This document shows, piece by piece, positions 7,839-13,819 of a stretch of 64,000 nt of DNA (its first letter is position 1; the number at the start of each line of letters is the position of its first letter). The DNA is taken from the NCBI RefSeq assembly GCF_949769195.1, contig NZ_OX458333.1, positions 1,922,001 to 1,986,000 on the forward strand, in the 5' to 3' direction. The translations under genes and the position numbers were made by a program. A model generated the notes under the pieces. That model was not told where the DNA came from, did not search any database, and saw only the letters and a list, made by a program, of their open reading frames with translations. Source of the stretch: Methylocaldum szegediense. Lineage in GTDB: Bacteria; Pseudomonadota; Gammaproteobacteria; Methylococcales; Methylococcaceae.

Positions 7839-7891
7839 TGGCGCGCCCGAGACGACTCGAACGTCCGACCTTTGGCTCCGGAGGCCAACGC
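7839..7891. repeat. Left attachment repeat (53 bp, inside tRNA-Arg)
   Basis: Identical to 13767-13819 and in the same orientation. It covers the tRNA from the anticodon stem to the CCA end. Flanking bases differ on both sides (AA versus TT on the left, T versus G on the right), so the identity is exactly 53 bp, typical of a tyrosine-integrase att core. Confidence 0.9.
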
Positions 7892-7915
7892 TCTATCCAA
7901 CTGAGCTACGGGCGC
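7839..7915 (-). tRNA. tRNA-Arg (anticodon CCG)
   Basis: A complete 77-nt cloverleaf reading leftwards. The acceptor GCGCCCG pairs with CGGGCGC, then discriminator G and encoded CCA. The D arm contains AGCTCAGTTGGATAGAGC, the anticodon stem TTGGC/GCCAA holds loop CTCCGGA (anticodon CCG, arginine CGG), and the T arm contains GTTCGAGTC. The 3' 53 nt are repeated exactly at 13767-13819 and serve as the attachment core of the adjoining element. Unusually, the integrase lies on the 5' side of this tRNA. Confidence 0.95.
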
Positions 7916-7966
7916 ATGCCGCGCAATCAATAACTTACCGCGCATGTCCAAATTAGGCCAACGCCC

Positions 7967-7987
7967 TGTGTCACACTTCTGTCACAG
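7967..7987. promoter_or_regulatory. Paired TGTCACA motif, candidate left integrase arm site
   Basis: Two TGTCACA copies start 11 bp apart (7969 and 7980), in the spacing TGTCACACTTCTGTCACA. The same double motif, with one base changed, occurs at 13659-13676 just inside the right repeat. A further TGTGACA lies at 9060. Symmetric placement inside both att repeats fits arm-type integrase binding sites; regulation of int is an alternative. Confidence 0.5.
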
Positions 7988-7995
7988 AGGCGATT

Positions 7996-8961
7996 ATGGC
8001 GACTATCCGAAAACGGGGGTCAAGTTGGCAGGTTCAGGTTAGAAAAAAGGGGCAGATGCTCTCCAAAACCTTCGAGAGAAAGACAGACGCTCAGACGTGG
8101 GCGGCCGAAATCGAGGGACAAATCGGCAAAGGTACCTTTGTAAATCCTACATTCGCCGAGCGCACGACACTCAATGAGCTTTTGGACCGATTCGAAGCGG
8201 AGATACTACCTTCGCTTCGCGGGCAGAAGGCCGAAAAAACCCGGATCAAACATCTACGGCGTGAACTTGGCAAGCATACCTTGGTGGAACTCACACCTTG
8301 CCGTTTAGCGGAATTCCGACAAGAACGCTTGAAAGCTCTTAGTCCGCAATCGGTCAAGCACGAATTGGGTTTGTTGAATCGCGTCTTAAAGTTGGCCCAC
8401 GGCGAATGGGGAATCCATTTGCCGGGAGGCGTTCCGACAGTAAAGGCTCCGCGACTGCCGCGAGGGCGGGAACGGCGCTTAGAAGCCGGTGAGTTGGAGC
8501 GGTTGCTTGAAGCGTTGGCAGTGTCGCCGACGGCACAGACAATGGTTCAGTTTGCACTTGAAACAGCGATGCGGCGGGGTGAGCTGTGTGCAATGCGCTG
8601 GGAGGATGTTGATATGCGCCGAGGGGTGCTTCACATTCCTCAGACGAAGACCATGGTACCGCGAACAATTCCGCTGACGAGCAAGGCTGTCGCGATTTTA
8701 AAGAGATTACCGCGAAATCTCACCGGGAAAGTCTGGAACATGACGCCTGACGGTCTTACCCATGCGTTTGTTAAGGCGTGCCGTCGAGCGGGTATTGAGG
8801 ACTTGCACCTTCACGACCTTAGACACGAAGCGACAAGCCGACTGATTGAGAAAGGATTGAGTACCATGGAGGTATCCGCGATTACCGGGCACCAGAGTCT
8901 GGACATGCTGAAACGCTACGCGCACTTAAGACCGGAGGACATCCGGGAGAAGTTGGGGTAA
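7996..8961 (+). CDS. int: Tyrosine recombinase / site-specific integrase
   Basis: 321 residues, full length. An N-terminal arm-binding-like region (residues 1-50, GSSWQVQVRKKGQ), a core-binding SAM-like domain (about 58-150) and a C-terminal catalytic domain. The catalytic set is visible: R193 (AMRRGEL), H273 and R276 (HDLRHEAT), H299 (TGHQSL) and nucleophile Y308 (KRYAHL). The start at 7996 follows the paired TGTCACA motif at 7967-7987 by 8 bp, suggesting autoregulation by the integrase itself. It should recombine the 53-bp core in tRNA-Arg. It is oriented away from the tRNA, whose 5' end faces it, the opposite of the usual tRNA-3'-end arrangement. Confidence 0.95.
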   Translation: MATIRKRGSSWQVQVRKKGQMLSKTFERKTDAQTWAAEIEGQIGKGTFVNPTFAERTTLNELLDRFEAEILPSLRGQKAEKTRIKHLRRELGKHTLVELTPCRLAEFRQERLKALSPQSVKHELGLLNRVLKLAHGEWGIHLPGGVPTVKAPRLPRGRERRLEAGELERLLEALAVSPTAQTMVQFALETAMRRGELCAMRWEDVDMRRGVLHIPQTKTMVPRTIPLTSKAVAILKRLPRNLTGKVWNMTPDGLTHAFVKACRRAGIEDLHLHDLRHEATSRLIEKGLSTMEVSAITGHQSLDMLKRYAHLRPEDIREKLG

Positions 8962-9095
8962 GTACGATGTCGGCGGATTAATGAGGGGATTAGCGGTGAT
9001 TTGCGGTCTCTTGACTAAGTTCAAACCGTGCGTTAAAAATGACGACGCCTGTCGCATGTTTGTGACAGTTCTTCCCCCACCAGAAGGAACCGTTA

Positions 9096-9287
9096 ATGAA
9101 TAGGGACGATTCGATCATATTCCGCAAAAGGCCGTTAGCGCAACACCTTGGAGTATCGATTTCGACGCTCGACCGGCTGCGTGCTACCGATCCTACCTTC
9201 CCCCAAGAATTTCGCTTAGGAAAGCGTGCAATCGGCTTTCTTCGAGCCGATGTTGAGCGGTGGCTGGCGTCTAAACGGACTAGCTAG
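9096..9287 (+). CDS. AlpA-family DNA-binding regulator / excisionase
   Basis: 63 residues with the AlpA pattern: RKRPLAQHLGVSISTLDRLR (winged-helix recognition part), FPQEFRLGKRAIGFLRADV and WLASKR at the end. Family members activate integrase or act as excision factors in satellites and prophages. An AGAAGGA before the ATG supports the start. It lies between int and the primase-helicase gene. A TGTGACA box lies about 30 bp upstream of its start. Confidence 0.85.
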   Translation: MNRDDSIIFRKRPLAQHLGVSISTLDRLRATDPTFPQEFRLGKRAIGFLRADVERWLASKRTS

Positions 9288-9297
9288 CCACAAAGAA

Positions 9298-9326
9298 AAA
9301 AACCCCGCATGGACGCGGGGCGGGAT
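9298..9326 (-). terminator. Terminator-like hairpin facing leftwards
   Basis: On the minus strand CCCCGC-GTCCAT-GCGGGG is followed by TTTTTTT. The neighbouring genes on both sides run rightwards, so this hairpin would stop antisense transcripts coming from the primase-helicase side before they reach the AlpA gene and int. Confidence 0.55.
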
Positions 9327-9408
9327 ATCTACGTAACCTGTTGATATCTTAACAAATTCCCGCCTTCTGTCCATTGCGGCCCGTAACATTCAACCATTGG
9401 GACTCGCA

Positions 9409-12405: not shown

Positions 12406-12789
12406 ATGAAATCTAACGACGCTTTTTCCCCAAAGCAACGTCTCTTGCTGTACAGACTGGCAGAAGGGATGAGCCAAGCTGAAGCCGCACGTCAAAGCGA
12501 CTTCCATCCAACAGCCGTCTGTCGATTTTTGCAAAAGCCAGAGGCCAAGGCCGAACTCGAAAGGTTAATGGCGGTTGCCGAGCAACGCTTGATCGAGCGG
12601 TTGCCTGCCCTGGTAGACAAGGCGCTGGACGTTCTTGAGGCGGCGTTGACCGCCAGGCTAAACCCCAATCGCCAGCTTCGGGCAGCCCGGATCGTTTTGG
12701 AAACGGCTTCCCGTTTGGTGCGGAAGGCGAACAGCGACGGCGGCACCATTATCAATCAGCCGCCCGAACCACCGACCGATTCTCACTGA
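12406..12789 (+). CDS. HTH protein resembling phage terminase small subunit
   Basis: 127 residues. The N-terminal helix-turn-helix (FSPKQRLLLYRLAEGMSQAE, then AARQSDFHPTAVCRFLQKPE) is followed by a long helix and the region PALVDKALDVLEAALT, the usual architecture of terminase-small-subunit-like proteins of phages and satellites. There is no large-subunit gene in the element, so it may redirect a helper phage packaging motor or simply regulate copy number. It lies just right of the candidate origin, with an ATG at 12406. Confidence 0.55.
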   Translation: MKSNDAFSPKQRLLLYRLAEGMSQAEAARQSDFHPTAVCRFLQKPEAKAELERLMAVAEQRLIERLPALVDKALDVLEAALTARLNPNRQLRAARIVLETASRLVRKANSDGGTIINQPPEPPTDSH

Positions 12790-12819
12790 TCTCAACATTC
12801 GTCATGGAGGACGACGACA

Positions 12820-13155
12820 ATGACCGATCTGCTCGATTTAGCTTTTACCTTGGAAACACAGGCCCAAACATCTCGATGGATGCCCCGCGGCTTTCGTAGC
12901 TGCTGCAAGGCGATCCGACAAGCGATTCAATCCGGGGATTTGGTAAGCGCTCACCACTGGCTAAATTCTGTGTGGTGCCCCGACACTAAACATCTGCTCC
13001 GGCCAGTGCGGGAGACTCTACAGGACCGCATGACTGAAAGGGAACACAGAATTTTTTCGGCTCTGGTGCATGAGCCTGGCCTTCCTTCTCGGCCAGGGAA
13101 GCTAGCACATCAAATTCTCGAGGCCAAAATTCGAAAGCTGCAATCGCAGTACTGA
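12820..13155 (+). CDS. Hypothetical element protein
   Basis: 111 residues, no family recognised. The start is supported by GGAGG at 12805-12809. It is helical and rich in Trp, His and Arg (MPRGFRSCCKAIRQAIQSGD), with a C-terminal GKLAHQILEAKIRKLQSQY. It follows the HTH gene by 30 bp and is the last gene of the element. Functions such as regulator or packaging accessory are guesses. Confidence 0.55.
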   Translation: MTDLLDLAFTLETQAQTSRWMPRGFRSCCKAIRQAIQSGDLVSAHHWLNSVWCPDTKHLLRPVRETLQDRMTEREHRIFSALVHEPGLPSRPGKLAHQILEAKIRKLQSQY

Positions 13156-13381
13156 CGGCGCCAGCCTCTCTGTCCTGCCGCCCCACGAGGGGCGGTAAGG
13201 GCTGCCTACCCCGCCTTCGCGCCTTTTGTGGGCAGGCTATTTTCGTCACTGTGACAAAATCAGCTTGTCGAACAGCGTCATTGGCGCTGTCTCTCGGTTT
13301 TGAACGACCAAAAAATTTCCGATCGAGGCTATATACCGCGCGCGAGCTCGCACAGAAAAAAGTATGGCCGGGGTTAAAAAG

Positions 13382-13397
13382 TTGGCACGGGTTTTGC
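13382..13397 (+). promoter_or_regulatory. Sigma-54 (RpoN) promoter P1
   Basis: TTGGCACGGGTTTTGC: the -24 element TGGCACG and -12 element TTGC, with exactly 10 nt between the GG and GC dinucleotides, match the RpoN consensus. It has a near copy 78 bp downstream. Confidence 0.7.
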
Positions 13398-13459
13398 GGT
13401 GGAACTATATTCGCATGATTTGTGCCAGTCTCGAAGGCGCATGGTTACTGCATTTTAAG

Positions 13460-13475
13460 TTGGCACGGGGTTTGC
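13460..13475 (+). promoter_or_regulatory. Sigma-54 (RpoN) promoter P2
   Basis: TTGGCACGGGGTTTGC, again GG-N10-GC. The flanks also resemble P1 (AAGTTGGCACGGG and GTGGAA), so the two arose by duplication. The start would be near 13487, with no good ORF downstream before the CRISPR array. Confidence 0.7.
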
Positions 13476-13656
13476 TCGTGGAAAAATGTATGAGGAACAC
13501 CACGGGCGAAGATCGGCGAAACCCTGGCGAGGGCGAGACCCATGAGATGCTCTACAATTACCAATGTGTGACAAAATTGTGACGCGATACCGAGACGCCA
13601 CGGCTATGCTACATTTCGACGCCTAAGGAAGAATGTCACCAGGGAGGGCTGGTTTT

Positions 13657-13679
13657 TTGTCACACTTTTGTCACACTGA
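13657..13679. promoter_or_regulatory. Paired TGTCACA motif, candidate right integrase arm site
   Basis: TGTCACACTTTTGTCACA, differing in one base from the left copy at 7969-7986, and followed at 13681 by TGTGACA in inverse orientation. It lies 88 bp inside the right attachment repeat, as the left site lies 76 bp inside the left repeat. Confidence 0.5.
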
Positions 13680-13766
13680 CTGTGACAAACCCTTGCTGCT
13701 GGGAGACCGCAGATTCAGCGGTTGTTTTTGTAAACCCTTGTGACACAAGGCGTTTTGGCTGAAATT

Positions 13767-13819
13767 TGGCGCGCCCGAGACGACTCGAACGTCCGACCTT
13801 TGGCTCCGGAGGCCAACGC
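13767..13819. repeat. Right attachment repeat (53 bp tRNA-Arg 3' fragment)
   Basis: An exact copy of 7839-7891. Only the 3' part of the tRNA is present; the 5' half expected on the chromosomal side is missing. Four bases (GGAG) separate it from the first CRISPR repeat. Confidence 0.9.

Follow-up and report, generated by a model that had tools for sequence, protein, structure and literature searches.

A Satellite-Like 5.9-kb Element of Methylocaldum szegediense Probably Integrates at tRNA-Arg and Has a Second Copy in a CRISPR Spacer

Introduction

The closest described counterparts of the subject of this article, a 5.9-kb integrative element in a 64,000-nucleotide stretch of the Methylocaldum szegediense chromosome (NZ_OX458333.1, positions 1,922,001 to 1,986,000; hereafter the window), are two groups of phage satellites. 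Phage-inducible chromosomal minimalist islands (PICMI) of Vibrionaceae have a core of int, alpA, and prim genes and average 6.7 kb; in the accessible part of their description they reside at fis, at most once per genome, are complete only in Vibrio, depend on a virulent helper phage for activation and packaging, and lack terS, the gene for the small terminase subunit, while prim, as we understand the passage, is apparently defined by DUF3987/DUF5906 (PMC10803314). Gram-negative phage-inducible chromosomal islands (PICI), of 12-15 kb in the portion of the source available, combine an integrase, an AlpA regulator, and a primase-replication module with an origin, occupy att sites never used by prophages, and in some cases carry terS (PMC6092414); elsewhere a PICI average of 9.5 kb is given (PMC10803314). 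Damage to clustered regularly interspaced short palindromic repeats (CRISPR) loci has its own precedents: the excerpts consulted report phage-CRISPR recombination in staphylococci (Varble et al., 2019, as cited in PMC8616872), insertion sequences (IS) in cas genes (PMC10359306), and loss of repeat-spacer units upon SSV2 integration (PMC8371274).

How does the Methylocaldum element compare? It is very probably a satellite-like element integrated at tRNA-Arg(CCG), with a second copy in spacer 197 of a type I-C array and with the flanks of the two copies exchanged, by inversion or in the assembly. By gene content, it resembles a PICMI or a small Gram-negative PICI in how it would work. Like a PICMI, as far as the part of the source at hand goes, it has int, alpA, and prim together, large non-coding stretches, and no capsid-remodelling genes; unlike a PICMI, it is found at tRNA-Arg and in a CRISPR spacer rather than at fis, is present in two copies, encodes a primase with no Pfam match at E<=0.1 in place of a DUF3987/DUF5906 protein, and has a weakly TerS-like gene (PMC10803314). 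With Gram-negative PICIs, as partly accessible, it shares an integrase, a replication module (by homology and iterons), a master regulator, and the lack of structural and lytic genes, but it is only 5,928 bp long, and a helper phage and interference are putative in its case (PMC6092414). Lacking the fis location, the limit of one per genome, and the kind of primase that mark a PICMI, as well as the length of a PICI, and with helper dependence putative, the element is filed as neither. The original prediction, made from the letters of the window, held that its gene set matched no nameable element; this was too strong, since int-alpA-prim is the PICMI core and integrase, AlpA, and primase occur in E. 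coli PICIs. The apparently new part is the use of a CRISPR spacer as the attachment site of an integrative element. Mobile DNA joins a CRISPR locus via a spacer in phage-CRISPR recombination as well, but the present element matches only 18/35 spacer nucleotides, and this match lies inside an integrase attachment sequence (cf. the part of PMC8616872 available); it damages a CRISPR-Cas locus as the IS and SSV2 cases do, but those accounts, in the portions seen, do not describe a spacer used by a site-specific integrase (PMC10359306; PMC8371274).

Two Copies, Four Junctions, and Empty Sites

The bounds of the element and the features of its two ends in the window are as follows:

7839..13819 (+), copy 1 of the element as integrated; 5,928 bp from one repeat to the other
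7839..7915 (-), tRNA-Arg(CCG) across the left junction; 3' part taken as chromosomal, 5' part presumably from the element
7839..7925 (no strand), 87 bp, the entire tRNA and 10 bp more, common to the element and the tRNA site of the chromosome
7874..7891 (no strand), 18-bp core; tRNA positions 25-42, anticodon arm; also in a CRISPR spacer
13767..13819 (no strand), 53-bp repeat, right-hand copy; the final 18 bp form the region of crossover with the CRISPR spacer
13820..13823 (+), closing 4 nt of the broken spacer, whose initial 13 nt adjoin copy 2 at a distance of 2.7 Mb
13824..15438 (+), array end distal to cas; 7 exact repeats and one degenerate, split by an IS (transposase 14270-15250, -)

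The exact 53-bp direct repeats (7839-7891 and 13767-13819) are present and spaced as predicted; what the prediction missed is that the right attachment site lies inside a CRISPR spacer and that the genome (chromosome 4,869,648 bp; all replicons 4,895,372 bases) holds a second copy of the element. A whole-genome search located copy 2 at chromosome 4648197-4654142 (-), ~2.7 Mb from copy 1, with 0 mismatches across 7874-13819 (5,946 bp). To the left of 7874 the copies diverge, copy 2 being bordered there by the CRISPR array: copy 1 is arranged as tRNA flank, element, CRISPR, and copy 2 in mirror order as CRISPR, element, tRNA flank, its right end carrying the whole tRNA-Arg and, past it, different chromosomal DNA. 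A simple insertion would have left the 5' half of tRNA-Arg to the right of copy 1; this half is not there, and the right 53-bp repeat is instead followed by 4 bases and a CRISPR repeat.

The two copies, their four junctions, and contiguous empty sites in relatives are read directly. In 3/3 same-genus genomes, tRNA-Arg is uninterrupted and its site empty. Past mobility follows from the second identical copy and these empty sites, and a real, well-bounded minimal integrative mobile element, extending beyond what the window alone shows, is thus confirmed. That it carries a complete tRNA-Arg in its attachment sequence, as predicted, is supported by 87 bp of identity with the chromosomal site, so the tRNA gene survives insertion; the shared attachment (att) sequence is accordingly these 87 bp and not the 53 bp of the repeats. 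Since all four junctions are readable, the crossover is narrowed to 18 bp. Perfect copies of this core are confined to the four ends of the two element copies; elsewhere in the genome, one site has 2 mismatches and nine have 3, and the reversed control pattern matches 8 places at <=3 mismatches.

The Broken Spacer and Its Array

The cas-adjoining array comprises 197 exact repeats (4654156-4668347, -). At copy 2, the final repeat on the cas side is succeeded by 13 bases of spacer, the 18-bp core, and the element; on the window side, the element ends in the same 18 bp, followed by 4 bases and a CRISPR repeat. Joined, the spacer ends give 13+18+4 = 35 nt, the commonest length among complete cas-side spacers (73 of 196; range 33-39). 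Insertion into a spacer is independent of the question of inversion or misjoin because each junction is a unique sequence. If the leader is assumed to lie on the cas side, the broken spacer ranks 197th of at least 203 and is therefore an old one, and the element inserted in the array cuts off the spacers distal to it from the leader.

Two other spacer-target relationships were considered and set aside. The seed of a CRISPR spacer is its 5' end; the broken spacer matches tRNA-Arg at nt 14-31, outside this seed, making self-targeting of tRNA-Arg unlikely. Another spacer (s071) stands out among the 202 compared, with a 16-nt match near the element's Walker motif (E 3e-5). The protospacer adjacent motif of type I-C systems is TTC; this match, 21/34 overall, has no TTC before it and is taken as chance.

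Six scanned Cas proteins of the locus are type I-C (Cas1c, Cas4c, Cas7c, Cas8c, Cas5c, and Cas3c) and four others are Cmr6, Cmr4, Cmr3, and Cas10; the cmr genes, which are type III-B-like, are placed within the I-C operon, with cas3 on one side and cas5 on the other (locus L024, chromosome 4668000-4686000). The 197 repeats of the very long array (4654156-4668347) are all identical, and two spacers are present twice. Very similar rve-type IS transposases are found at window 14270-15250 (by Pfam), 62637-63665, and L113 16-771 (the latter two by eye); one of these IS splits the distal array and another lies just beyond the cas genes. Elsewhere in the window, the tRNA flank is adjoined by DUF499 and DUF3780 genes (1256-5012, -) that belong to a candidate defence system in PADLOC, and 60555-61727 (-) encodes an HEC-01A-like protein, the best match of 68 PADLOC families.

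Genes and Non-Coding Features of the Element

Five open reading frames (ORFs) and several non-coding features make up the element:

7969..7986 (+), TGTCACA pair, 11 bp apart, left; candidate integrase arm site
7996..8961 (+), tyrosine integrase, 321 aa; PF00589 E 7.8e-31; phrog_1
9096..9287 (+), AlpA-type regulator/excisionase, 63 aa; PF05930 E 4e-7
9397..12153 (+), primase-helicase, about 913-918 aa; phrog_16593, phrog_29234; N-terminal primase part, C-terminal Walker ATPase (alignment)
12161..12384 (no strand), predicted candidate origin; 8 GTGGGTCT iterons flanking an A+T stretch
12406..12789 (+), TerS-like helix-turn-helix (HTH) protein, 127 aa; weakly phrog_2538 E 0.011; homologues adjoin primases
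12820..13155 (+), small last ORF, 111 aa; no family
13383-13397 and 13461-13475 (+), two predicted sigma-54-type sites, both perfect (TGGCACN5TTGC); non-coding right end; putative function
13658..13675 (+), TGTCACA pair, 11 bp apart, right; candidate integrase arm site

Much of the predicted inventory holds: the integrase is intact, the AlpA-like regulator and primase-helicase have matching families or PHROGs, and an iteron cluster marks a candidate origin. The primase-helicase has no Pfam family at E<=0.1; the alpha primase of P4 has a Pfam match. A search of solved structures gives a single marginal match, to a designed ATPase. All 8 of the element's GTGGGTCT iterons fall within 12161-12384, four direct and one inverted copy to the left of an 80% A+T stretch (12256-12300) and three inverted copies to its right. 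The paired TGTCACA sites at both ends are likewise real: the element contains 9 copies, further inverted ones lying at 13250, 13567, 13681, and 13739, against 10 in the whole window and a mean of 0.70 (max 5) in 300 dinucleotide shuffles of the element. Scans of the element's five ORFs (with PADLOC on the two small ones only) yielded neither families for capsids, conjugation, or defence nor phage structural or lytic genes, in line with the predicted lack of capsid and conjugation genes.

The predicted terminase-like gene fares less well, its likeness to TerS being the weak PHROG hit above. The protein, for which tblastn finds no match in phages or plasmids, is modeled as all-helical (single-sequence prediction, mean predicted local distance difference test score 76), with helices at residues 9-19, 24-31, 35-42, 45-82, and 87-111. 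The sigma-54-type sites, 78 bp apart, are the sole two in the window (shuffle mean 0.13; 3/100 shuffles reach 2); genome-wide, the perfect pattern occurs 23 times, 4 of them in copies 1 and 2, and its reversed control 16 times. A non-coding RNA in the right end was considered and rejected: 13483-13660, downstream of these sites, folds like shuffles (z 0.58), and Rfam matches to microRNA and whalefall-1 are below the gathering threshold.

Relatives and a Recurring Gene Order

At the DNA level the element body was found in none of 60 other genomes, where matches are tRNA genes or short stray stretches; its proteins have wider kin. Integrase relatives (E<=1e-25) occur in 132/311 genomes of the order, own included; 16 of 19 loci scanned have at least one tRNA, and the closest relative (49%) is at tRNA-Arg(CCT). 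Primase relatives (E<=1e-20) are present in 11/38 family genomes (own included), in 85 phage records, none covering 80%, and in 26 plasmid records, 8 of them covering 80%; none was confirmed in viral_contigs. Half of 10 widened family loci with primase relatives have a tRNA, and around these tRNAs direct repeats of at least 15 bp are lacking in four loci and reach 15 bp in L039. From 146 genome_contigs stretches with primase relatives at the same threshold, 80 were kept (13 listed by ORF, 12 scanned for tRNAs, and 7 with one small pre-primase ORF tested). At blastp E<=1e-3, an integrase like the element's is found in 40 of the 80 and AlpA in 2, and the TerS-like protein and last ORF in none, nor do these two occur in 14 further primase loci at E<=0.01. 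A tRNA is present in 4/12 scanned loci, and the small ORF before the primase is AlpA in 2/7; the best example among the kept loci, L126, has tRNA-Leu, int, an ORF, AlpA (E 3e-16), and primase.

Homologues of the TerS-like protein (E<=1e-4) exist in 13/311 genomes of the order, own included; loci were widened in 10 of the 12 others, and PHROG scans of flanking ORFs were made on narrower cuts. The ORF directly upstream matches primase, replication, or helicase PHROGs in five loci (L217-L221); in L222 a weakly primase-like ORF is downstream, in L223 and L225 the contig begins a short way upstream, and in L224 nothing but small ORFs precedes the end of the contig. The predicted five-gene order at tRNA genes is borne out by L218, a complete 5.8-kb element with tRNA-Pro, int, AlpA (PF05930 E 8e-9), primase, TerS-like gene, and a 130-aa ORF between 63-bp repeats (4855/10667). 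L220 has the order (int, HTH_17, primase, TerS-like, small ORF) and no tRNA in the 12 kb taken. L226 probably has it as well: 46-bp repeats 9.25 kb apart at tRNA-Thr accompany int and an HTH_17 protein, and a 729-aa ORF upstream of the TerS-like gene occupies the primase place. In L217, int adjoins tRNA-Leu and 26-bp repeats are 6.3 kb apart, but no ORF of at least 55 aa lies between int and primase and no alpA is recognisable. At the 80 primase relatives, by contrast, no TerS-like or last-ORF homologues were found.

By these matches, similar gene orders recur in Methylococcales. Primases of the TerS-like loci belong to other PHROGs than the element's, with only that of L220 weakly similar to its N-terminal part (24%); primase modules therefore seem to be exchanged among elements of shared gene order. 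The last small ORFs of these loci have no convincing similarity to that of the element (best E 0.047). The flanking ORFs scanned, a subset of the full number, include no large terminase, so that a packaging role of the TerS-like gene remains a hint.

Weighing the Alternatives

Is the flank exchange a property of the chromosome or of its assembly? The left flank of copy 1 and the right flank of copy 2 form one contiguous alignment across the junction in 3/3 same-genus genomes (92, 86, and 84% identity), whereas either copy as assembled breaks the alignment at the element. In one of these genomes, G003, a stretch of 20 kb takes in the flank on the cas side, the cas genes, an array of 11 repeats (its repeat related to that of M. 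szegediense, with 6 mismatches), and the right flank of the window. Several observations weigh against the main reading. Contiguity of cas genes, array, and flank is seen in only 1/3 relatives: G002 has the right flank and no cas match (blastn, 19.9 kb taken), and the G001 contig ends at the right flank and is uninformative. The Norfolk assembly (GCA_949769195.1; replicons of 4,869,648 and 25,724 bp) combines Illumina and 184,537 Nanopore reads (ERR11151913) at 173x coverage, with a Nanopore N50 of 4,370 bp, according to the part of the report available (PMC10868220), which also gives 99.64% average nucleotide identity with strain O-12 (GCA_000427385.1). The 5.95-kb repeat exceeds this N50 and the junctions are read from the assembly alone; the exchange is therefore either a real inversion or a misjoin. 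GC skew (40 samples of 20 kb) changes sign near 1.44 and 3.0 Mb, with an outlier at 2.58 Mb (+0.0035), so that by our arithmetic replichores of 1.56/3.31 Mb now would become a more even 2.14/2.73 Mb if the inversion were undone. In G003 the two sites are codirectional, an arrangement in which recombination would yield a deletion; an inversion would thus need one further, earlier rearrangement in this lineage. If the exchange is an assembly error, the copies simply sit in tRNA-Arg and in a CRISPR array whose halves are 6 kb apart, an explanation that falls just short of even: it accommodates the repeat length, replichores, site orientation, and the contiguity of the tRNA locus in 3/3 relatives and of the CRISPR locus in 1/3, but the read set probably includes reads >7 kb and origin-spanning inversions between inverted repeats are common.

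Why should a spacer contain a tRNA-Arg core? A tentative answer, possible though well below even, is that the cell originally acquired this spacer from a mobile element that uses the anticodon-arm core, making an immune record a working attB, and that a later satellite with the same core integrated there, cut the array, and separated the old spacers from their leader. On the same side of the ledger as the points above stand the fruitless search for a protospacer of the broken spacer (no exact pieces in viral_contigs, only weak matches with E 1 or more in phages and plasmids, and 0/311 genomes of the order at <=3 mismatches) and the lack of a reported integrase with a CRISPR spacer as attachment site in literature covered mainly as titles and abstract openings, with few subscription journals. 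Chance, rather than memory of a tRNA-Arg-targeting element, could explain the core, a view that the missing protospacer favors and that we rate somewhat under even. By our arithmetic a perfect 18-mer is expected about 1e-4 times in 4.87 Mb, and the longest exact match of the 202 other spacers to the 87-bp att sequence is 10 nt; no shuffled set of 202 spacers exceeds 14 nt, but 48/200 reach at least 11. The overlap of a tyrosine integrase spans up to 7 bp; up to 7 bp may thus have been converted after strand exchange, the original match being perhaps 11 bp, and chance keeps some weight. That the CRISPR copy arose without integrase, by microhomology or RecA recombination between tRNA sequence and spacer, is quite improbable: spacer-target recombination is on record in the part of PMC8616872 available, but a whole-spacer match is lacking here, the 18 of 35 nt shared with the tRNA-Arg anticodon arm being short for RecA, and these 18 bp lie inside the tRNA attachment sequence, with the spacer as the only other perfect core in the genome. 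The nature of the element itself is likewise debatable. The original prediction offered a satellite or an integrative plasmid; the minimal integrative element stands, and helper-phage dependence is putative. A plasmid that replicates as a circle and is moved by means other than a phage is possible rather than probable. It would fit the iteron-like origin, the lack of a confirmed packaging gene, and near full-length primase-helicase relatives on Psychrobacter plasmids pA17P3 and pA32H2, the latter a 6.5-kb circle (29% identity over 96% of length) which, unlike the element, has no integrase among the four genes of an incomplete PLSDB table; by contrast, alpA and the recurring int-alpA/HTH-primase-TerS-like order, partly at tRNA genes, fit satellites better.

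A Model and Its Implications

The favored reading, a satellite-like element that is integrative and probably self-replicating, suggests the following course of events. The tyrosine integrase would recombine at tRNA-Arg(CCG), where the anticodon arm is the likeliest place, with strand exchange inside the 18-bp core aided by TGTCACA arm sites at both ends. The second identical copy would have entered spacer 197, whose copy of the core served as a secondary attB; the flanks would then have been exchanged, through a 2.7-Mb inversion by homologous or Int-mediated recombination or only in the assembly. By analogy with PICIs and PICMIs, AlpA may be an activator or excision factor, and the element may be induced through it; the excised circle may be replicated from the iterons by the primase-helicase and transferred by a helper phage.

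What would this mean beyond one genome? Here, in nature, an integrase has apparently taken a CRISPR spacer for its attachment site, and each of the four junctions can be read. If the tentative origin of the spacer is true, arrays holding att-derived spacers would be general secondary targets of the elements they record; and, if such spacers are hit time and again, the memory itself could be the route by which mobile elements harm it. To our knowledge, no satellite has been described in methanotrophs; the present findings point to roughly 6-kb satellite-like elements in these bacteria, with a shared gene order and exchangeable primases.

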